Positions 21,138 to 33,676 of a stretch of 64,000 nucleotides of DNA are shown in pieces. Source of the DNA: Promicromonospora soli (GTDB lineage: Bacteria > Actinomycetota > Actinomycetes > Actinomycetales > Cellulomonadaceae). The stretch is taken from the NCBI RefSeq assembly GCF_014653785.1, contig NZ_BNAS01000001.1:310001-374000 (forward strand). Direction: 5' to 3'. The notes beneath the pieces are model-generated. The model was not told the DNA's origin. It ran no database searches and saw nothing but the letters and a program-made list of their open reading frames with translations. Each line of letters starts with the position of its first letter. Positions within the stretch are counted from its first letter, which is position 1. The translations under genes were made by a program, and so were the position numbers.

Positions 21138-22424
21138 ATGCGCTCCATGCTTCTTGCCGCACACGTCGCGGACGGGCACGTCGCGCCCATGCTCGGCGTC
21201 GCCGCACACCTCACCGCCGTCGGGAACCGGGTGCGTTTCCTCGCCGGCGACCGGTTCGCCGACGCGGTCCGCGGCACGGGTGCGGAATTCATCCGATGGC
21301 CGGACGGCGCCCAGATCGACCACCGCGCTGCGATGGCCGAGTCCCGCCGGGGCGGAGACCGGCGCGAGGGGACGAAGGGGATGGTTCGCAACATCGAGGA
21401 GTTCTTCATCGCGCCCGCCCTGGACCAGTACCGGGCGCTGCGTGCGGCGATCGATGCAGAGCCGACCGACGCGGTGCTGACCGAGTTCACGGTCGTCGGC
21501 GCCGCAGCTCTGGCACAGTCGCGCGAGCCGCGGCCCCCGCTCGTGGTGTGCGGCGTCCTTCCGCTGGGGCTGTCCAGCGTCGACACAGCCCCATGGGGAC
21601 TGGGCATCCTGCCCCGCGACGACCTGATCGGTCGCACCCGCAATCGCTTCCTGAACCTGATGGCGAGGCATGTCATCCTCCGCAAGCCACAGCACCAGGT
21701 CGCGGAGTTCGTGCACGAGGTGACCGGTGCGGACCTCGGCGTCTACTTCTTGGACTGGGCGGTACACGCCGACCACTTCGTGCAGTTCACCGTGCCCGGG
21801 TTCGAGTACCCGCGCCGCGACCTCCCCCCGACCGTCAGCTTTGTCGGCCCCGTCTCCCGCACCTCGAGGCCCGTTGCGCTGCCCGCCTGGTGGTCGGACC
21901 TCGACGGCAGCCGCCCCGTCGTGCACGTGTCGCAGGGCACGGTCGCGAACGAGGACCCGGGCGAGCTGATCGTCCCCACGCTTCGCGCGCTGGCCGACCG
22001 CGACGTGCTCGTGGTCGTGACCACGGGAGGTGCGCCCCTTGCCGCGCTCGGCACCCTGCCACCCAACGCGCGGGCGGCGGAGTTCATCGGCTACGACGAC
22101 CTGATGCCGAAGGTCGACGTCTTCGTCACGAACGGCGGCTACGGCGGGCTCCACTACGCCCTCGCGCACGGCGTGCCGATGGTCGTCGCCGGTGACACCG
22201 AGGACAAGGCCGAGACGACGCGGCGTGTCGAGTGGTCGCGCACCGGGGTGAACCTGGGAACGGCACGACCCGACGAGGCGACCATCGCACGGGCGGTGGA
22301 CGAGGTGCTTGTTGTCCCGTCCTACCGGGAGCACGCACGTGCCCTTCAGGCGGAGATCGCCGGCGCGCCGGGTGTCGCGGGCGTGGCGCAGATCACGCTC
22401 GACCTCGTCGCCGCGCGGGGCTGA
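21138..22424 (+). CDS. GT1 (UDP-glycosyltransferase/MGT-like) glycosyltransferase
   Basis: The 428-residue protein has the two-Rossmann GT-B layout. The N-terminal acceptor domain begins LLAAHVADGHVAPMLGVAAH, and the C-terminal donor domain has VVHVSQGTVANEDPGELIVP near residue 257 and the nucleotide-sugar motif VFVTNGGYGGLHYALAHGVP near 330, followed by AGDTEDK. This resembles macrolide/antibiotic and lipid GT1 enzymes. The acceptor and sugar are unknown. AAGGGGA precedes the ATG at 21138; a GTG three bases earlier is an alternative. The gene precedes the exported-redox operon but is separated from it by that operon's own strong promoter. Confidence 0.85.
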   Translation: MRSMLLAAHVADGHVAPMLGVAAHLTAVGNRVRFLAGDRFADAVRGTGAEFIRWPDGAQIDHRAAMAESRRGGDRREGTKGMVRNIEEFFIAPALDQYRALRAAIDAEPTDAVLTEFTVVGAAALAQSREPRPPLVVCGVLPLGLSSVDTAPWGLGILPRDDLIGRTRNRFLNLMARHVILRKPQHQVAEFVHEVTGADLGVYFLDWAVHADHFVQFTVPGFEYPRRDLPPTVSFVGPVSRTSRPVALPAWWSDLDGSRPVVHVSQGTVANEDPGELIVPTLRALADRDVLVVVTTGGAPLAALGTLPPNARAAEFIGYDDLMPKVDVFVTNGGYGGLHYALAHGVPMVVAGDTEDKAETTRRVEWSRTGVNLGTARPDEATIARAVDEVLVVPSYREHARALQAEIAGAPGVAGVAQITLDLVAARG

Positions 22425-22475
22425 TCTTTCCCAGGTGCTGCACGCGAAGTCTGCCGTTCCCTGTCGAACTTTTGC

Positions 22476-22504
22476 TTGACACCCGTCATAAGTCCTCCTA
22501 TGTT
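22476..22504 (+). promoter_or_regulatory. strong sigma-70-type promoter of the redox operon
   Basis: TTGACA (22476-22481), a 17-bp spacer and TATGTT (22499-22504) form a near-consensus promoter, the best seen in this window. The predicted start is near 22511, 180 bp upstream of the multicopper oxidase start codon. Confidence 0.75.
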
Positions 22505-22511
22505 CGCAATA

Positions 22512-22526
22512 TCACCCGTCGGGTGA
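22512..22526. promoter_or_regulatory. palindromic operator at the transcription start
   Basis: TCACCCGTCGGGTGA is a perfect 7-bp palindrome around one central base, placed at the predicted start site. CACCCGTC also occurs at 22480-22487, 33 bp upstream, inside the promoter spacer. A regulator bound to both would lie on one face of the DNA. Confidence 0.5.
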
Positions 22527-22548
22527 CCCACCCATGGAGGGAACGACG

Positions 22549-22617
22549 ATGAGGTCAACCTTCGTGTCCGTGACACCGCTGTCACTCGCGGCGACGCCGA
22601 CGGCTTCGCGCGCCTGA
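22549..22617 (+). CDS. possible 22-residue leader peptide
   Basis: ATG 22549 to TGA 22617 encodes a 22-residue peptide beginning [10 protein letters not shown], with GGAGGG eight bases upstream. It lies in the 5' leader of the redox operon, 73 bp before the oxidase start. It is rich in Ser, Thr and Ala and shows no run of one amino acid that would suggest classical attenuation. It may be a spurious frame. Confidence 0.3.
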
Positions 22618-22690
22618 GCCCGGTCCCCACCCGATTCCTGTCTCGTCGGAACGGCCGGAACGGCTGCCCGACGGCGTCGAACGGAGACTC

Positions 22691-23788
22691 ATGCCCCAGT
22701 ACAGCTCTGACACCCGATCCCAGCAGAGCGGCGTGTCCCGTCGCTCGATCCTGACCGGCACGCTCGCCGGGCTCATGGTGCCGACGGCGGCCCTCACGCT
22801 CGGCGCGGACGGTGCGGCCGCCGTCGGCCCCGGGCCCATCAGACCGCTCGGTACCACCCGGCACATCACCGTCTACGCGGAGCCCCTGCCCGGCGGCCTC
22901 CACGGCTACGGGCTCGCCCCAGGCAAGGCCACCATCCCCGGCCCCCTTCTGGAGATGTGGGAGGGCGACACCCTCCAGGTCGAGCTGGTGAACAACACCG
23001 ACAAGCGCCTGTCGATCCACCCGCACGGGGTCGACTACACGACCGAGTCGGACGGCAGCCCGTTCAACGACTCGTTCAACGAGCCCGGCGAGACCCGCAC
23101 CTACACCTGGCGCAGCCACGCGCAGACCCAGCTCGACGACGGCCACTGGGTACCCGGCACCGCGGGCTACTGGCACTACCACGACCACGCGATGGACGGG
23201 GAGCACGGCACGGCGGGCCTGCGCGCGGGCCTGTACGGCGGGCTCGTCGTGCGGCGCAAGGGAGACATCCTGCCCGACCGCACGTACACCGTCGTGTTCA
23301 ACGACATGACCATCAACAACAAGTCGGCCCCCGACACCCCGATGTTCGAGGCGAACCTCGGGGAGACCGTCGAGTTCGTCGCGATCGGGCACGGGGACCA
23401 GCTCCACACGTTCCATCTGCACGCCCACCGCTGGGCGAACAACCGGACCGGCTACCTGACCGGCCCCGACGACCCCAGCCAGGTGATCGACACCCGCGAC
23501 CTCAACCCGGGCGACTCGTTCGGGTTCCAGGTGAAGGCCGGGCAGGCGGTCGGCGCAGGCGCCTGGATGTACCACTGCCACGTCCAGTTCCACTCCGACG
23601 GCGGCATGGCCGGGATCTTCCTGGTACGTAACGCCGACGGCACCATGCCCGCCGGCGCGCAGGAGGCCATCGACCGGTTCCACGAGCACGGCGGCCATAC
23701 GGCGGGCAGCACCGCCGGGACCGATGCCGAGACCCGCACCCAGACCGACGCCGCCACGCACGCAGAAGAGGGCCACACCGGCCACTGA
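22691..23788 (+). CDS. exported two-domain multicopper oxidase (small-laccase type)
   Basis: The 365-residue protein begins with a twin-arginine-like signal ([20 protein letters not shown], residues ~15-34). Copper ligands appear as HPHG near residue 110 and [14 protein letters not shown] near 160 in domain 1, and [10 protein letters not shown] near 240 and [14 protein letters not shown] near 300 in domain 2. This is the two-domain arrangement of actinobacterial small laccases, which work as trimers and reduce O2 to water while oxidising phenols or metals outside the membrane. The C-terminal tail is His/Thr-rich. It is the first large gene of a probable three-gene operon with a quinoprotein-type dehydrogenase and a cupredoxin. 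Confidence 0.92.
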
Positions 23789-23834
23789 CCGGGACATCCC
23801 GGACGACTTTTCGATCACGCGCAAAGGAGCAGTG

Positions 23835-26800
23835 ATGGAACGGACAGGAAGACGCATCCTCGCCGCAGTGGCAGGCGCCGCCCTCGTCGTCGGGCTGGCT
23901 ACGGTCCCGGCGCAGGCCCGGCGGAGCACCACGGCCGACGCCGCCCCGGCAGCCGTCGCACCCGCCGCACTCGCCACCACCCCGGACGCGGCAGACGTCA
24001 CCGTGCTCGTGTTCCACGGGGCGCCGGACAAGCAGCTCGACCCGGTGGCGGTCGCCACCAGGACCATCCGGGAGCTCGGCGCGGAGCACGGGTTCACCGT
24101 GCACACGGCGAGCGACCCGAAGGTCTTCACCGCGAAGAATCTCGCGGAGTACCGCGGCGTGGTCTTCCTGTCCGCCGAGGGTACGCAGCTCACCACCGCG
24201 CAGGAGGATGCCCTCAAGGCCTACGTACAGGGCGGCGGCGGGTTCCTCGGCATCCGCGACGCGGCGCGGGCGCAGGACCGTTCGCAGTGGTTCACGGGCC
24301 TGATCGGCACCCGGCCGGCCGGCAACCTGCCGGACCCGCTGGCCGTCGCGAGCGTCACCGCGAGCGCGGAGAACCCGCCGAACGAGGACGCCCCGAACCT
24401 GATCGACGGCGATGCGAACACCAAGTGGCTCGCCTTCGAGCCGACGGCGGTGATCGACCTCGAGATGGCCGAGCCGGTCGTCGCCTCCCGGTACGCGCTC
24501 ACGTCGGCCAACGACTTCGCCGGTCGTGACCCGAAGAGCTGGACCCTGCAGGGCTCCACGGACGGTACGACGTGGACCGACCTGGACACGCAGACCGACC
24601 AGGACTTCCCTGAGCGGTTCACCCCCAACGACTACCGGTTCGAGAACACGGTCGCCTACCAGCACTACCGGCTCGACATCACGGCGAACGCGGGTGACGA
24701 CCTCACCCAGCTCGCGGAGATCCAGCTCTTCGACAGCTCCGGCGAGGCGGAGCCGGACCCCGAGGTCCCGGTGCAGGAGGCGACGGTCAACGTCGTCGAC
24801 CGCGCGCACCCGGCGGGCGGCGGGCTCCCACTGAGCTGGACCCGCTCGGACCGGTGGCTGAACTGGTCGCCGAACCCGGTCGGCGACGTGCACACCGTGG
24901 CGCAGGTCGAGGAGTGGGACTACGAGCCGGGCGAGGGCGCGAACGGCCCGTTCCACCCCGTCTCGTGGTGCCGCGACTACGACGGCGGCCGGTCGTTCTA
25001 CACCGGCATGGGCGGCACCGCCGCGAGCTACGCGGAGGCGGAGTTCCGTGACCACCTGCTCGGCGGCCTGCTCTGGTCGACCGGCATGGTGCGCGGCGAC
25101 TGCCAGGCGACCATCGCGGCGAACTACGAGTCCGAGCGCCTGACGGTGAAGAACGCCGCGGGCGCGCTCGACCAGATCGGCGAGCCGCACGGACTCACGG
25201 TGGCGCCGGACGGCGGCGTCTTCTACATCGGCAAGGCCGCCTGCCCCTCCGGACCGGTCGTGGCGTGGGAGGACGCGAACGTGGGGCTGGGCTGCGGCAC
25301 CGTCCACCGCTGGGACCCGGAGTCCGGGACCACGAAGCTCCTGACCACCCTCGACGTCATGGGCAACCGCGGCAGCGGCAGCGAGCTGGTCAAGAACGAG
25401 GAGGGCCTGCTCGGCATCACCCTCGACCCGCAGTTCGACGAGAACCGGTGGGTCTACCTCTACTGGATGCCGCACGAGTCGATCGACCGCGAGCGCCGCG
25501 TCGGCCAGCGGACGGTGTCGCGCTTCACGTACGACGCCGAGGCGAACACGATCGACCAGTCCACCCGCAAGGACCTGCTGCAGTGGGAGACGCAGATCCA
25601 CAGCTGCTGCCACGCGGGCGGCGGCATGGACTTCGACAACGAGGGCAACCTCTACATCGGGTCGGGCGACAGCAACTCGTCGGGCGGGTCGAGCGGCTAC
25701 TCCGGCAACAACTGGACCCAGGAGTACGCGGGCATCTCGTTCCAGGACGCGCGGCGCACCGCCGGCAGCACGAACGACCTGAACGGCAAGATCCTGCGGA
25801 TCCACCCGGAGCCGGACGGCACGTACACGATCCCGGAGGGGAACTTGTTCCCGGAGGCGGACGACCCGGGCGACAAGACGCTCCCGGAGATCTACGTCAT
25901 GGGCGTGCGCAACATCTCGCGGCTGGCCTACGACACGAAGAACGACTGGCTGACCGCGGCGTGGGTCGGACCGGACGCGGGCCTGCCGGACCCGGAGCTC
26001 GGGCCGGCGAAGTACGAGACCGCCACGATCATCACCTCGGCGGGCAACCACGGCTGGCCCTACTGCATGGGCAACGGGCAGCCCTACCGGGACCGCAGCA
26101 ACGAGGACGCGACGGTCCTGACGGGCTGGTACGACTGCGACAACCCGAAGAACACGTCGCCGCGCAACACCGGCCTGGTCGACCTCCCGCCGGTGCGCGA
26201 CAACATGATCTGGTACTCGCCGAGCGGCGGCGGGCCGGTGTTCCCCGCCCGGGAGAACGGCGTCCCGTCCTACGTGGACTCCGAGGCGACCTACACCCAG
26301 CCGTACCTGCGGGGCGGCGGGCAGGCCGTGATGAACGGTCCGACCTACCACCGGTCCGAGGTCGACACGGGCAGCGGCGTCGCCTGGCCCGCGTACTGGG
26401 ACAACAAGTGGTTCATCGGTGACCAGTCGAACGCGAACAACCGGGTAGCCGTCACGGTGAACCCGGACACCGTCGAGGAGGCCGGTCCCCCGGTCTTCGC
26501 CGAGGACCTGCGCCAGATCGTCCACGGCGGCAACGGCGACAACGACGTCGAGCAGTGGATGGACGCCAAGTTCGGTCCCGACGGCGCCCTGTACCTGCTC
26601 GACTACGGCGGCGGCTTCTTCTCCCTGACCGATCGCCAGAAGCTGGTCCGGATCAGCTACACGGGCGGTCCGGCCACGCCGGCACCGGCCGGTTCCGGGG
26701 CGAGCGTGCAGAGCGACCCGCTCACCGTCGCCTTCACCGGCGACCGCTCGGGCGGCGTCTCCTACGCCTGGGACTTCGGGGACGGGACCACGTCGACGGA

Positions 26801-27803
26801 GGCGAACCCGCGGCACACCTACCCGCGCGTCGGCAGCTACGACGCGAAGCTCACGGTGACCTATGCGGACGGCGAGTCGAGAGAAGTGGACGTACCGGTC
26901 AGGACCACGTGCACAGTCCCGGACGACCGGGACACCGTCTGGATCGGCGACGAGAACAGCGGTGTCACCAACGACGACCTGGGCGGCTGCACGATCAACG
27001 ACCTGATCCGCGACGAGGCCGAGTGGGACACCAGCGGGCAGTTCGTGAACCACGTGACCGCGGTGGCCGACCAGCTCCTGGCCGACAGGGTCATCACCAG
27101 GAAGGAGAAGACGGCGCTGGTCTCGACCGCCACGAAGTCCGGCATCGGGACGGAGGGCAGCACCGGGTACCGGTGGCTGTTCGACGGCACCTCCGAGTCC
27201 CTCGGGGGCTGGCGGCAGGCGCCGGGCGGCAGCTTCGACCTGCGGCCGGACGGCTCCCTGCGGTCGCAGGGCGGTCTGGGCATGCTCTGGTACGCGGCGG
27301 AGGAGTTCGAGGACTTCTCGCTGAAGCTGGAGTTCCAGGACGTGTCGGCCGGCGCGACCCGTGCCAACAGCGGCATCTTCACGCGGTTCCCCGACCCGCG
27401 GGTCCCCCGTGACGAACTTCCGGAGTGCGGGCAGCTGACCGACGCCGAGGCCTGGGTCGCCATCTACTGCGGCCAGGAGATCCAGATCTACGACGGGGAG
27501 GCGGGCGAGCCCCAGAAGACGGGCTCGGTCTACAACTTCGACCCGGTCACGCTCGACGGCGCCGGGGCGACCCCCAAGGGCGTCTGGAACGAGTACGAGG
27601 TCCGGGTGGTCGGCCAGCAGTACACGATCATCCGAAACGGCGCGGTGATCAACGAGTTCGACAACTCTCCGGGCAAGGAGTCCTCCCGCCCCGGTGACCC
27701 GCCGACGGACCTGCGGCAGTTCCTCAGTGGGTTCGTGGGGCTGCAGAACCACGGCAGCTCGGACCTCATCGAGTTCCGCAACATCCGGGTGCGAGACCTG
27801 TGA
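23835..27803 (+). CDS. secreted ThuA / discoidin / sugar dehydrogenase / PKD / DUF1080 protein
   Basis: The 1,322-residue protein has a signal peptide cleaved after VPAQA. Order of domains: first half of a ThuA-like domain (~56-160, VTVLVFHGAPDK); an F5/8 type C domain (~171-302, LIDGDANTKWLAF); second half of ThuA (~313-430, SWCRDYDGGRSFYTGMGG); a glucose/sorbosone-dehydrogenase propeller (~430-945, AGGGMDFDNEGNLYIGSGD, DLNGKILRIHPEPDG); a PKD domain (~949-1024, YAWDFGDGT); a ~79-residue Cys-containing module (1026-1104); and a C-terminal DUF1080 concanavalin-like domain (~1111-1322), a family that includes 3-keto-glycoside hydrolases. It probably binds and oxidises or cleaves glycans outside the cell; PQQ dependence is inferred. 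AAGGAG precedes the ATG at 23835. Confidence 0.9.
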   Translation: MERTGRRILAAVAGAALVVGLATVPAQARRSTTADAAPAAVAPAALATTPDAADVTVLVFHGAPDKQLDPVAVATRTIRELGAEHGFTVHTASDPKVFTAKNLAEYRGVVFLSAEGTQLTTAQEDALKAYVQGGGGFLGIRDAARAQDRSQWFTGLIGTRPAGNLPDPLAVASVTASAENPPNEDAPNLIDGDANTKWLAFEPTAVIDLEMAEPVVASRYALTSANDFAGRDPKSWTLQGSTDGTTWTDLDTQTDQDFPERFTPNDYRFENTVAYQHYRLDITANAGDDLTQLAEIQLFDSSGEAEPDPEVPVQEATVNVVDRAHPAGGGLPLSWTRSDRWLNWSPNPVGDVHTVAQVEEWDYEPGEGANGPFHPVSWCRDYDGGRSFYTGMGGTAASYAEAEFRDHLLGGLLWSTGMVRGDCQATIAANYESERLTVKNAAGALDQIGEPHGLTVAPDGGVFYIGKAACPSGPVVAWEDANVGLGCGTVHRWDPESGTTKLLTTLDVMGNRGSGSELVKNEEGLLGITLDPQFDENRWVYLYWMPHESIDRERRVGQRTVSRFTYDAEANTIDQSTRKDLLQWETQIHSCCHAGGGMDFDNEGNLYIGSGDSNSSGGSSGYSGNNWTQEYAGISFQDARRTAGSTNDLNGKILRIHPEPDGTYTIPEGNLFPEADDPGDKTLPEIYVMGVRNISRLAYDTKNDWLTAAWVGPDAGLPDPELGPAKYETATIITSAGNHGWPYCMGNGQPYRDRSNEDATVLTGWYDCDNPKNTSPRNTGLVDLPPVRDNMIWYSPSGGGPVFPARENGVPSYVDSEATYTQPYLRGGGQAVMNGPTYHRSEVDTGSGVAWPAYWDNKWFIGDQSNANNRVAVTVNPDTVEEAGPPVFAEDLRQIVHGGNGDNDVEQWMDAKFGPDGALYLLDYGGGFFSLTDRQKLVRISYTGGPATPAPAGSGASVQSDPLTVAFTGDRSGGVSYAWDFGDGTTSTEANPRHTYPRVGSYDAKLTVTYADGESREVDVPVRTTCTVPDDRDTVWIGDENSGVTNDDLGGCTINDLIRDEAEWDTSGQFVNHVTAVADQLLADRVITRKEKTALVSTATKSGIGTEGSTGYRWLFDGTSESLGGWRQAPGGSFDLRPDGSLRSQGGLGMLWYAAEEFEDFSLKLEFQDVSAGATRANSGIFTRFPDPRVPRDELPECGQLTDAEAWVAIYCGQEIQIYDGEAGEPQKTGSVYNFDPVTLDGAGATPKGVWNEYEVRVVGQQYTIIRNGAVINEFDNSPGKESSRPGDPPTDLRQFLSGFVGLQNHGSSDLIEFRNIRVRDL

Positions 27804-27832
27804 CCACGTCCGCGAAGATGAGAGGCGCCCCC

Positions 27833-29704
27833 ATGTTCAGACAGAAGCTGTCCCGCCTGCTCGCCGCTGCCGCGGCCGGCGCACTCGTGGCGCTGCCGCT
27901 GGCCTCGACCGGGGCCACCGCCGTGGAGTACCGCGGCGACGGCGTGACCGCCTGGTCCACCGCTGAGGTGGCGGACCAGGCCGCAGCGGACCAGGTCCTC
28001 ACCTGGACCGCGAACGCCGGCGTCTCGGCGTACGCCTCGGCGCCGGCCACGGCGACCGCCGGGGCCGCCACCGTGGTCTTCGAGAACAGCGTCGCCACGG
28101 GCAACAACATCGGCATGTCCCACACCCTGACGTTCGACACCAGCACGCCGGGGTACAACCACGACGTCACCCTGGACATCCTGGCCAACCCCCTGGACAA
28201 CAACGGCGGCCGCTACGAGGCCGAGGTCGTCCTGACCCCGGGCACCTACCGGTACTTCTGCGCGATCCCGGGCCACGGCACGATGGTGGGCGAGCTCGTG
28301 GTCACGGAGGGGCCGGGCGAGGACACCACCGCCCCGGTCGTCACGGCGCAGGTCGCCGGCCAGCAGGACGCCGACGGCGCGTACATCGGCTCGGCCACCG
28401 TGAGCCTCGCGGCCGAGGACGACAGCTCGGGCGTCGCCTCCGTCGAGTACTCGGTCGACGGCGGCGCGTACGTCCCGTACACCGAGCCGGTCGTCCTCGA
28501 CCAGCCCGGCATGTACATGCTGGAGCACCGGGCCACGGACAACGCCGGCAACACCTCGGACCCCGGGACGGTGCACGTGGTGGTCGTGGCCGCCGACGGG
28601 GAGGACACGACGGCGCCCGTCGTCACTCCCGAGATAACGGGCGAGCTCAACGACGACGGTGCCTACGTAGGGTCCACGACCGTGAACCTCACGGCCCTGG
28701 ACGCCGGCTCGGGCGTGGCCACCGTCGAGTACGACGTGGACGGGGCGGGGTACGCGACCTACACGGGCCCTGTCGTCGTCGACACGCCGGGCGAGCACAC
28801 GGTGGCCTACCGGGCCACCGACAACGCCGGCAACACGTCCCAACCCGGTTCGGCGACGTTCACCGTCGTCGAACCGTCGGCGGAGGACACCACGCCACCG
28901 ACCGTCACCACCCAGGTCACGGGCGAGCAGGACGGCGGCGGCGCGTACATCGCCTCGGCGACGGTGGCGGTCCTGGCCGAGGACGCCGGAACGGGGGTGG
29001 CGGGGGTCGAGTACAACCTGGACGGCGCCGGGTACGTGGCCTACACGGCCCCGGTCGTCGTCGACGTCACAGGCCCGCACCGGCTGCTGTACCGGGCCAC
29101 CGACAACGCCGGCAACACCTCTCCACCGGGCTCGGTGGAGCTGGTCGTCGTCGGCGGCAGCGATCCGCCGGACCGGACGCCGCCGATCGCGTCGGCGCAG
29201 GTCGACGGGGAGCAGGACGAGCTCGGTGCCTACATCGACTCGGCGACGGTGTCCATCAGCGCCCGGGACGACGAGTCCGGGGTGGCGTTCATCGAGTACG
29301 CGCTCAGCGACACCGCCTTCCGGGAGTACACGGGCCCGTTCGACGTCACCGGCTCCGGGGCGCACGAGCTGCGGTACCGGGCCACCGACAACGCCGGGAA
29401 CGTCACCCGGACGGGGACGCTCAGGTTCTCCGTGTCGCGGGAGGGCATCGACGCCTGCCCGGTCTCCGACGAGCGCCCGACGGTGATCATCTCGGATGTG
29501 GACAGCAAGGTGGCCAACGTCGACACCGGCAACGGGTGCACCGTTGCCGACCTCATCGACGCGGACGGGCCGTGGGTCAGCCACACCGCCTTCGTGAGCC
29601 ACGTCGGCCAGGTCACCGACCGGCTCAGCACGGCCGGCGTCCTCACCACGAGGCAGGCCGACAAGCTGGTGGCCGCGGCCAAGCGGTCCGACGTCGGGCG
29701 GTAG
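27833..29704 (+). CDS. secreted cupredoxin with four Ig-like repeats
   Basis: The ~623-residue protein has a signal peptide (KLSRLLAAAAAGALVALPLA). A plastocyanin-like domain (~40-160) follows with the type 1 copper motif FCAIPGHGTM and an upstream His in MSHTLTF. Four ~93-residue OmpL47/Ig-like repeats follow, each starting DTTAPVVT-like and ending near YRATDNAGNTS. A C-terminal module (542-622) is shared with the preceding gene product. It probably shuttles electrons between the dehydrogenase and the multicopper oxidase. ATG 27833 with GAGAGG seven bases upstream is preferred; GTG 27800 overlaps the previous stop and is an alternative. Confidence 0.85.
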   Translation: MFRQKLSRLLAAAAAGALVALPLASTGATAVEYRGDGVTAWSTAEVADQAAADQVLTWTANAGVSAYASAPATATAGAATVVFENSVATGNNIGMSHTLTFDTSTPGYNHDVTLDILANPLDNNGGRYEAEVVLTPGTYRYFCAIPGHGTMVGELVVTEGPGEDTTAPVVTAQVAGQQDADGAYIGSATVSLAAEDDSSGVASVEYSVDGGAYVPYTEPVVLDQPGMYMLEHRATDNAGNTSDPGTVHVVVVAADGEDTTAPVVTPEITGELNDDGAYVGSTTVNLTALDAGSGVATVEYDVDGAGYATYTGPVVVDTPGEHTVAYRATDNAGNTSQPGSATFTVVEPSAEDTTPPTVTTQVTGEQDGGGAYIASATVAVLAEDAGTGVAGVEYNLDGAGYVAYTAPVVVDVTGPHRLLYRATDNAGNTSPPGSVELVVVGGSDPPDRTPPIASAQVDGEQDELGAYIDSATVSISARDDESGVAFIEYALSDTAFREYTGPFDVTGSGAHELRYRATDNAGNVTRTGTLRFSVSREGIDACPVSDERPTVIISDVDSKVANVDTGNGCTVADLIDADGPWVSHTAFVSHVGQVTDRLSTAGVLTTRQADKLVAAAKRSDVGR

Positions 29705-29717
29705 CCAAGCAGAACGG

Positions 29718-29775
29718 TCGGCAAATGGTCAGGAGATCGGCAGTCCGAGCTGCCGATCTCCTGACCATTTGCCGA
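29718..29775 (+). terminator. 26-bp perfect hairpin ending the redox operon
   Basis: Arms 29718-29743 and 29750-29775 are perfect 26-bp inverted repeats around a six-base loop, starting 13 bases after the cupredoxin stop. No U-run follows. It separates the operon from the hydrolase promoter. Confidence 0.85.
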
Positions 29776-29807
29776 TCACCGGGCCCTGGGCCGCCTGGGA
29801 ACCGAAA

Positions 29808-29866
29808 GAAACTGTACGACCGTTCGGACAGCGTGCTAGTGTCCGAACGATCGTACGGACAGTTTC
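29808..29866 (+). promoter_or_regulatory. promoter with TetR-type operator for the hydrolase gene
   Basis: An imperfect inverted repeat runs from GAAACTGTACGACC (29808) to its mirror ending at 29866, with a 3-bp indel. It contains boxes TACGACCGTT (29815-29824) and AACGATCGTA (29846-29855). The extended -10 TGCTAGTGT (TAGTGT 29837-29842) lies between the boxes, so a bound repressor would block RNA polymerase. The left box is nearly identical to the operator upstream of the TetR gene (20225-20240). Confidence 0.7.
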
Positions 29867-29888
29867 TTCAGCACCCAAGGAGCGCACC

Positions 29889-30782
29889 ATGCCCCCCGCC
29901 CTGCGCGTCACCGCCGCCTCGCTCCGGGCCCTCGCCCGCATCGCGCCGCCGCTCGCGGCCGAGGTCGCGACCCGGCTCTACTTCCGCGTCGGGCCGCCTG
30001 CCGCGGTCCGCCCGCAGGAGCGCGCGGTCCACGAGGCGGCACGCACCAGCACGATCCGGCACCAGCGCATGGCCACCACCGGGCGCAAGCCTGTCGACGT
30101 CGTCGTGTACACCTGGGGCGAGACCGACGCGCCCGGCGTCCTCCTGGTGCACGGCTGGCAGTCCCGCGCGTCGTTCTTCGCGCCGTTCGTCGAGGACCTG
30201 CTGGCGGCCGGCCTGCGCGCCGTCGCCTACGACGCGCCCGCGCACGGCGACTCGGGCGGCCGCCGGCGAACGATCGTCGACGACGTGGCGATCATCCACC
30301 GCCTGTCGGACGCCGAGCCGGCCGCGTGGGCGGGTGTCGTCGGCCACTCCGCCGGGGCCCTCGCCGGCGGCGTCGCGCTGGCGGACGGGGTGGCGGCGCG
30401 CCGGTTCACCAGCCTGTCCGGCGTCTCGTCCGCGTCCGCGCTGGCCGAAGGGTTCTTCGCGCTCGCCGGCCTGCCGCCGAGCCTGCGCCCGCAGTTCGAC
30501 GACGTCGTCCGCCGCCGCAGGTTCCCCGACGTGCCCGACGTCTACGAGCGGTACGACCTCACGCGGCGGCCGGTGCCCGGCGCGGTCCCCGCCCTGTTCC
30601 TGCACGACACGGACGACCGGCAGGTCCCGTATCGCCATGCCGAGCTCCTGCTCGCGGTGCACGCAGACTCCGCGGAGCTGGTGACCACCACAGGCCTCGG
30701 CCACAACCGGATCGTCCGGGACCACGCCGTCCGCGGCCGCGTCGTCGACCACCTCACAGCCCCGGTCCCCGCTGACGCCTAA
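29889..30782 (+). CDS. alpha/beta hydrolase under TetR-type control
   Basis: The 297-residue protein has an N-terminal helical extension (~1-75) and an alpha/beta-hydrolase core. The oxyanion loop is VLLVHGWQSRASFFAPF near residue 85, the nucleophile elbow VVGHSAGALAGG near 155, the acid in LFLHDTDDRQVPY near 240, and the His in GLGHNRIVRD near 275. It resembles BAAT/hydrolase-4-like esterases of unknown substrate. AAGGAG precedes the ATG at 29889. The gene is monocistronic, lying between a terminator hairpin and a hairpin repeat. Its promoter carries the TetR operator. Confidence 0.85.
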   Translation: MPPALRVTAASLRALARIAPPLAAEVATRLYFRVGPPAAVRPQERAVHEAARTSTIRHQRMATTGRKPVDVVVYTWGETDAPGVLLVHGWQSRASFFAPFVEDLLAAGLRAVAYDAPAHGDSGGRRRTIVDDVAIIHRLSDAEPAAWAGVVGHSAGALAGGVALADGVAARRFTSLSGVSSASALAEGFFALAGLPPSLRPQFDDVVRRRRFPDVPDVYERYDLTRRPVPGAVPALFLHDTDDRQVPYRHAELLLAVHADSAELVTTTGLGHNRIVRDHAVRGRVVDHLTAPVPADA

Positions 30783-30792
30783 CCACCACCAT

Positions 30793-30853
30793 GTTGTGGG
30801 CGCGATCGTTGCGACTACGCGCCCGTTTTAGGCGCAACGATCGCGCCCACAAC
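30793..30853. repeat. 61-bp hairpin element, copy B
   Basis: Perfect 21-bp arms 30793-30813 and 30833-30853 surround a 19-base loop. The reverse complement matches the element at 12828-12888 at all but two bases (one in an arm, one in the loop). It lies between the convergent ends of the hydrolase gene (30782) and acnA (30914). Confidence 0.85.
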
Positions 30854-30862
30854 GAAGGGTTC

Positions 30863-30900
30863 CTCGACAGGCTCGACCACCGGTGGTCGAGCCTGTCGAG
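30863..30900. repeat. 38-bp perfect palindrome
   Basis: 30863-30881 and 30882-30900 are perfect 19-bp reverse complements with no spacer (CTCGACAGGCTCGACCACC in the left arm). It lies ten bases from hairpin element copy B, just past the acnA stop. A near-identical half is found inside dxs. Confidence 0.85.
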
Positions 30901-30913
30901 ACCCGGTACTACC

Positions 30914-33676
<2,763 letters not shown>

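Follow-up and report, generated by a model that had tools for sequence, protein, structure and literature searches.

What does a secreted bacterial laccase work with, and on what? The question is raised by a locus of Promicromonospora soli (contig NZ_BNAS01000001.1, positions 310,001 to 374,000; this whole stretch of 64,000 nucleotides is called the window below) in which three exported-protein genes, all on the + strand, lie between a promoter and a hairpin. The open reading frames (ORFs) encode a two-domain laccase (P1), a multidomain glycoside-related protein (P2) and a cupredoxin (P3). A paper on the SLAC family states that, for most of the bacterial laccases characterised so far, the physiological role has yet to be established (PMC3527528). 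An earlier note, made from the letters of this DNA alone, had read the locus as a possible extracellular copper-quinoprotein electron chain.

Our analysis finds that the laccase, P2 and P3 genes are one conserved unit, with intact copper ligands on P1 and P3 and with a 3-keto-disaccharide hydrolase domain carried by either P2 or P3. The reading that we tentatively prefer, at somewhat less than an even chance, is that the unit is a secreted redox module, conserved and copper-based, that acts on glycosides: P3 would partner the laccase, and P2 would oxidise and cleave glycosides. The features on which this reading draws are as follows.

22691-23788, + strand: P1, SLAC-type two-domain laccase with a twin-arginine (Tat) motif, 365 amino acids (Pfam, PDB matches)
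23835-27803, + strand: P2, exported multidomain protein, 1322 amino acids, ATG start (ORF, Pfam); domain order ThuA, F5/8C, GSDH propeller, PKD, shared C-module, 3-keto-disaccharide hydrolase
23982-25076, + strand: P2 ThuA domain in two stretches, the bounds of the first approximate (Pfam)
24354-24719, + strand: P2 F5/8C domain, which splits ThuA (Pfam)
25095-26684, + strand: P2 GSDH-like propeller, with Cys591-Cys592-His593 and Arg692-Asn693
26721-26888, + strand: P2 PKD domain (Pfam)
26901-27158, + strand: C-module of P2 (Cdom), residues 1023-1108 (P2-P3 comparison)
27171-27794, + strand: P2 3-keto-disaccharide hydrolase domain PF06439, the DUF1080 of the earlier note (Pfam)
27800-29704, + strand: P3, exported cupredoxin with Ig-like repeats and C-module, GTG start (ORF, Pfam, NCBIfam)
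27890-28321, + strand: P3 type 1 copper domain, with His108, Cys154, His159 and Met162 (numbered from the GTG)
28322-29449, + strand: P3 OmpL47-type Ig-like repeats (NF047446, 327 bits)
29450-29701, + strand: C-module of P3 (Cdom), residues 551-634 (P2-P3 comparison)

The gap between P1 and P2 is 46 bp, and the GTG of P3 overlaps the end of P2 by 4 bp (alternative ATG starts of P3 lie at 27818 and 27833). The tight, unidirectional arrangement of exported-protein genes described in the earlier note is thus borne out, as is its domain assignment: a two-domain laccase, a protein with GSDH, ThuA, F5/8C and PF06439 domains, and a type 1 copper protein with Ig-like repeats.

Conserved linkage of the three genes

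Among 394 sampled genomes of the class, 49 gave a laccase hit, and the cupredoxin turned up in precisely those 49. In 48 of these genomes the pair lies on one contig, 2.5-7.5 kb apart; in the remaining one (G313) a contig break falls between them, with the cupredoxin and P2 at contig ends. P2 (E <= 1e-120) is present in 48 of the 49, the genome without it being G165, and one genome that has neither laccase nor cupredoxin (G244) holds a P2 match at 47% identity. Co-occurrence had been named as a check on the proposed chain, and this result upholds the linkage. The family sample (n = 150) gave a similar picture, with near-full-length P2 in 36 genomes, cupredoxin in 36 and laccase in 40. P2 matches at E <= 1e-30 extend to 78 of the 150, those beyond the 36 being partial or paralogous. 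Every one of the 36 cupredoxin genomes has a laccase 4.5-5.5 kb away together with near-full-length P2. Four family genomes (G149, G023, G043 and G095) have laccase without cupredoxin, and in G149 the contig ends inside ThuA. These genome searches score only the candidates of a loose first look, and absences are not proof.

Loci from named genomes, the best 80 of 487 stretches encoding relatives of the cupredoxin domain, were all from actinobacteria by name: Promicromonospora, Isoptericola, Cellulosimicrobium, Oerskovia, Georgenia, Nonomuraea, Micromonospora, Actinoplanes, Amycolatopsis, Prauserella, Jiangella, Streptomyces and others. Laccase, ThuA/GSDH and cupredoxin are all present in 79 of the 80, and the last (L259) is cut 210 bp upstream by a contig end. 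When 26 loci, the window included, were compared with a simple ORF caller, P1, P2 and P3 each matched 20-24 of the 25 remaining loci. All further ORFs had matches in five of them at most, so that no regulator, transporter, copper gene or gene for pyrroloquinoline quinone (PQQ) is a conserved neighbour; the genes flanking the operon differ between genera.

A SLAC-type laccase

P1 contains only the Pfam domains Cu-oxidase_3 and Cu-oxidase_2, with no middle domain. Its best PDB match is 3T9W (E 1.1e-128), 3T9W and 3CG8 both match at E < 1e-117, and phmmer aligns it to two-domain laccase over residues 48-325. Residues H110, H112, H164, H166, H239, H242 and H244, as well as H295, C296, H297, H301 and M306, are invariant in 14 sequences; the allocation of each histidine to a particular copper is presumed here. 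The copper ligands are intact, and they provide the one Cys and ten His described for the SLAC family (PMC3527528). Motif counts were taken over 160 loci, of which filters on length and score leave 157 for the laccase, 155 for the cupredoxin and 150 for the propeller; these locus counts are not independent, as L101-L180 and L183-L262 overlap in species (e.g. L103/L183). Four strict laccase motif patterns failed to match in 7, 6, 3 and 2 of the 157 laccases, respectively.

With respect to export, P1 carries the twin-arginine motif SRRSIL, and the N-termini of P2 and P3 are hydrophobic and, judged by eye, Sec-like. An LPxTG sorting motif was not found on inspection of P1, P2 and P3.

The linkage data would also suit a scheme with no wire between the proteins, in which P2 and the laccase attack phenolic glycosides or lignin-carbohydrate bonds in parallel, P2 freeing phenolic aglycones from glycosides or 3-keto-glycosides while the laccase oxidises the released phenols, and with phenoxyl radicals or quinones perhaps serving as electron acceptors for P2 or P3. 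Small laccases do oxidise phenols, and SilA has been studied in lignin degradation (PMC3527528, PMC5675413); in Agrobacterium, a phenolic glucoside loses its aglycone when it is oxidised at C3 and then undergoes elimination (PMC10628242). What such a scheme leaves unexplained is that the most strictly co-occurring partner of the laccase is a type 1 copper protein, and we regard it as possible but doubtful.

P3 as a type 1 copper protein

The cupredoxin domain of P3 passes PF00127 marginally (21.3 bits against a cut-off of 21.2), and its profile matches auracyanin, plastocyanin and azurin. The ligands His108, Cys154, His159 and Met162 do not vary across an alignment of 25 sequences, and the type 1 ligand motif recurs in 154 of the 155 filtered cupredoxin loci, the exception (L213) lacking C-x4-H-x-M. 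The copper ligands of both the laccase and the cupredoxin, two of the parts to which the earlier note gave a role in its electron chain, are intact.

An identical genome distribution of P3 and P1 could also arise if P3 delivered or stored copper to metallate the secreted laccase, which would make the unit one of copper handling and not an electron chain. We consider this unlikely, given that the ligand set of P3 is that of electron-transfer type 1 sites, that the Tat motif points to folded export of the laccase, which would allow copper to be loaded before secretion, and that the operator scans described below revealed no G-tract CsoR-like site.

The P2 propeller

With respect to the proposed electron source, the P2 propeller scores 79.3 bits against PF07995 (cut-off 25), and in TIGR03606 it reaches 46.5 bits, far under the cut-off of 434.55. 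Its structural model has a mean pLDDT of 68, and the closest Foldseek matches are to soluble quinoprotein glucose dehydrogenase (sGDH; E 4e-16). Foldseek also pairs the model with hedgehog-interacting protein, which is not known to be an enzyme. A catalytic-type His (SCCH), an Arg-Asn pair (GVRN) and a GWP motif were found in 150 of the 150 filtered propeller loci, whereas a Met pattern was missing in 4 of the 150. Immediately before the catalytic His593 lie the vicinal Cys591 and Cys592, and the Ser-Cys-Cys-His sequence is invariant. A GSDH-PKD paralogue in the source genome (L264, G000:C7:3410-4204) likewise has Cys-Cys-His and, by eye, no R-x-R before PDG; because of this paralogue, Cys-Cys-His may be a property of a GSDH subfamily. 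Long paralogues, with open frames of up to 2,418 amino acids, are common in the family.

A PDG-anchored motif scan found R-x-R before PDG in 0 of the 150 propeller loci, whereas the canonical sugar dehydrogenase of the Promicromonospora source genome has it (GRLRAVHAGPDG). The comparison draws on this anchored motif together with a HMMER segment to 2ISM that is short and not significant; the MAFFT global alignment did not align the last third of the propeller to the canonical sugar dehydrogenase, and the equivalent of sGDH Lys377 was judged by eye only. The basic residues at the PQQ carboxylates of sGDH are Lys377 and Arg408, together with Arg406. One paper describes Arg406 and Arg408 as forming a pocket adjacent to the glucose site (PMC1781467). 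The crystal-structure paper on fungal AA12 names Lys377 and Arg408 of sGDH for the bacterial enzymes; of three arginines that bind PQQ, two recur in sGDH and Asd, and AA12 itself has an arginine that is placed differently (PMC6881789). Because AA12 uses this differently placed arginine, the loss of R-x-R weakens the case for PQQ without excluding it.

Genes for PQQ synthesis were sought in 30 of the 84 operon genomes found, the source genome included, and in 14 control genomes. PqqC and PqqE exceeded their cut-offs in the same three of the 30, with the source genome not among them; no control genome passed either cut-off, and the three hits are thus the only positive control. Sub-cut-off PqqE matches occur in all 30 operon and all 14 control genomes and are taken as other radical SAM proteins. 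Taken together, these observations indicate that the P2 propeller is probably not an ordinary quinoprotein.

The chain as first written would run from a PQQ-dependent sugar dehydrogenase through the cupredoxin to the laccase. The fold of the propeller model, its invariant His, Arg-Asn and GWP motifs, the ability of E. coli to scavenge PQQ and the partial differences among AA12 PQQ-binding residues (PMC6881789) all speak for it; the missing R-x-R, the scarcity of PqqC and PqqE and the low TIGR03606 score leave it very unlikely. The overall idea of that note therefore survives in part: the conserved unit, the copper ligands and the glycan domains stand, and the quinoprotein label is not borne out.

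Domain exchange between P2 and P3

The 3-keto-disaccharide hydrolase domain of P2 matches PF06439 at 112.2 bits (cut-off 26.8), and, in keeping with the glycan-binding role first suggested for parts of P2, the protein has domains of glycan and 3-keto-glycoside families. P2 and P3 also have in common a module of ~84 amino acids (41% identity) that had escaped the earlier note. We found no credible Pfam or NCBIfam family for this C-module: the weak, scattered hits, the best with E 0.0024 and none in more than 3 of the 13 members, are ones that we attribute to chance. Its high-confidence model (pLDDT 90.5) has two strands and three helices, and no PDB fold matched at E <= 0.001, the best Foldseek E being 2.3.

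The same pair of domains changes chains between genera. In a Streptomyces build, seen in nine complete named loci and 16 further loci, the laccase gene is divergent, the P2 counterpart (P2') has ThuA and GSDH without F5/8C, PKD or hydrolase matches, and the P3 counterpart (P3') comprises cupredoxin, Ig-like repeats, C-module and 3-keto-disaccharide hydrolase; these domains were confirmed by Pfam in one locus, L142. PF06439 and the C-module thus lie on P2 in other genera and on the cupredoxin chain in Streptomyces. Because the pair moves between the two chains, we suggest that P2 and P3 have a substrate in common or belong to a single assembly. In both builds the C-module mostly stands directly 5' of the hydrolase domain, with no such match listed before that domain in L141, L180, L245 and L262. 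In genome G084 (L140), a C-module copy precedes a separate PF06439-like domain.

Two further loci, L156 and L157, hold a cupredoxin and two laccases with no P2 within the ~16.5 kb fetched, and because of them cupredoxin and laccase may be the core of the unit. L158 resembles them and is cut by a contig end. Tandem laccase pairs beside a cupredoxin occur in L141, L156, L157, L158, L179 and L180.

Proposed mechanism and its weak points

In the copper redox module that we favour, P3 would present a type 1 copper site on a stalk of Ig-like repeats and be the natural redox partner of P1, which would reduce O2. P2 would bind glycosides and oxidise them in its propeller, with 3-keto-glycosides as the most likely product, which the ThuA and 3-keto-disaccharide hydrolase domains would process or cleave. 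The steps differ in strength. Electron transfer from P3 to the laccase is fairly likely, the propeller as electron source is less certain, and the propeller cofactor is probably not PQQ bound in the canonical way; conserved linkage argues for the step between cupredoxin and laccase and only weakly for the one between propeller and cupredoxin. The substrate and the direction of electron flow are what we infer from these parts. In Caulobacter, a gene of the PF06439 family has an important part in lactose use, and its product is a proposed 3'-ketolactose hydrolase; LacABC and PF06439 proteins have been proposed to cooperate via 3'-ketolactose there and in other bacteria (PMC9007349). Because of this proposed route, C3 oxidation is our best guess for P2.

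Several points weigh against this reading. PF06439 overlaps the carbohydrate-binding family CBM66 (PMC5673643), and the hydrolase domain of P2 may for that reason only bind. The redox role of the propeller is unproven because R-x-R is absent and the PQQ genes are mostly missing, and its fold relatives include hedgehog-interacting protein, in a model whose pLDDT is only 68. Three family genomes (G023, G043 and G095) have a laccase with no adjoining cupredoxin or P2, which implies that the laccase can act alone; in G023, the one of the three inspected, its neighbours encode an HxlR regulator, an SDR enzyme and an SBF-like transporter. Loci L156 and L157 are weak proof of a cupredoxin-laccase core, since their genomes (G236 and G290) also have the full operon at another place. 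In the class sample the operon is confined to 9 of 138 genera, so that there are fewer linkage events than genomes and the counts are not phylogenetically independent. The activity of the module and its electron transfer are, finally, predictions from genes.

It is scarcely probable that the propeller, the ThuA domain and the hydrolase domain merely bind glycans without catalysis, in a surface-anchored oxidase for the cell-wall or developmental chemistry of filamentous actinobacteria: the many binding-type domains (F5/8C, PKD, Ig-like), the CBM66 overlap and the hedgehog-interacting protein match would fit, but the catalytic-type residues are invariant at 150 of 150 loci and the operon also occurs in Cellulosimicrobium, Isoptericola and Georgenia, most of which are not known to form an aerial mycelium.

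The copper redox module also has a bolder form, which we consider quite unlikely: SLAC-type laccases would physiologically be the terminal oxidases of a copper chain outside the cell, fed by a dedicated cupredoxin, in which glycosides are oxidised at C3, and the propeller would represent a six-bladed oxidoreductase of a new class, working with a vicinal Cys pair beside the catalytic His and making no canonical use of PQQ. In any case, the conserved neighbours point to natural partners for the well-studied small laccase of soil actinobacteria, and a secreted cupredoxin with the genomic distribution of the laccase offers a direct and cheap test of the role of SLAC-type laccases. If P2 does feed the chain, the result would be an O2-driven, NAD-independent oxidation and cleavage of glycosides outside the cell.

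Promoter, leader and flanking features

The sites that bound the operon are listed here.

22469-22504, + strand: promoter block CTTTTGCTTGACA, with -35 TTGACA at 22476-22481 and -10 TATGTT at 22499-22504
22571-22584, strand not applicable: palindrome TGACA-N4-TGTCA, operator candidate in the 5' leader (alignment)
29718-29775, strand not applicable: perfect hairpin, terminator candidate, arms of 26 bp (29718-29743 and 29750-29775) and loop of 6 nt
29769-30782, or from the ATG at 29890: next gene, alpha/beta hydrolase

The near-consensus promoter and the 26-bp hairpin after P3 were both described before and were recovered here. The promoter (TTGACA-17-TATGTT, 22476-22504) agrees with the consensus at 10 of 12 positions and is the sole sigma-70-like site in 21500-31000, where shuffles give 0.3 +/- 0.5. 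Block CTTTTGCTTGACA is unchanged in 13 of 13 aligned Promicromonospora sequences. In 10 of 30 other loci (L161, L163-L167, L169, L170, L172 and L173), CAAAAG lies in the spacer of a TTGAC...TAnnnT match 5' of the laccase, and its recurrence in promoter spacers suggests a shared operator. The leader palindrome TGACA-N4-TGTCA is complete in 11 of 13 Promicromonospora sequences, with one end base differing by eye in L107 and L111; L113 carries a site that resembles it. A 22-codon ORF with a strong ribosome site (22549-22617) lies between the promoter and P1 and is partly conserved. We do not claim it as a leader peptide because, in the alignment judged by eye, L103, L107 and L109 do not preserve the length of its reading frame.

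Copper control by CsoR was considered and set aside. In pattern scans with the consensus from PMC3902906, a G-tract CsoR-like operator was found in 0 of 16 Streptomyces-type laccase-P2 intergenic regions and nowhere in the window. A looser TAC-N9-GTA repeat occurs in one of the 16 (L154). TACCC-N3-8-GGGTA is present in 9 of the 160 whole loci, the window not among them; in seven of these, the hit is a single type of sequence that recurs within the P2 gene.

The hairpin is the longest perfect inverted repeat with a loop of 3-12 in the 64-kb window. It has no T tract, for which reason its role as a terminator is only putative. A near-palindrome, TGTCCGAACGA/TCGTACGGACA, at 29840-29861 is TetR-operator-like by eye and lies upstream of, or inside the 5' end of, the alpha/beta hydrolase gene; it suggests that this gene may be a separate transcription unit.

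Comparison with known systems

We found no paper on a laccase-P2-P3 operon in the open-access literature, and term searches of the available text of PMC3918160 and PMC3527528 returned no mention of P2- or P3-like partners of small laccases. With the Streptomyces enzymes SLAC (SCO6712; PMC3918160), Ssl1, EpoA and SilA, P1 shares two cupredoxin domains, the full copper ligands and the Tat motif. Judged by gene number, SCO6710 should be the second gene from SLAC and may be P3', with SCO6711 as the candidate for P2'. The P2 propeller shares with the soluble quinoprotein glucose and aldose sugar dehydrogenases (PF07995) the fold, the catalytic His, the Arg-Asn pair and GWP; it differs in lacking R-x-R before PDG, in its vicinal Cys-Cys and insertions, and in falling far under the TIGR03606 cut-off. 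Caulobacter LacABC with its DUF1080 protein resembles the present system in that a PF06439 protein accompanies the oxidation of glycosides outside the cytoplasm (PMC9007349), whereas the operon here has a propeller, a cupredoxin and a laccase. No LacABC-type genes are apparent in it, there being no other dehydrogenase domain on P1-P3 and no other conserved neighbour, although no genome-wide search for LacABC was made. The fungal AA12 PQQ pyranose dehydrogenase is alike in joining a six-bladed sugar dehydrogenase to a redox module (PMC6881789). In AA12 that module is a cytochrome b; here copper replaces haem, the chains are separate and PQQ binding is doubtful. Finally, copper nitrite reductase, which is fed by azurin or pseudoazurin, offers the precedent of a two-domain multicopper protein supplied by a cupredoxin; the corresponding oxidase here is a laccase with a trinuclear centre.

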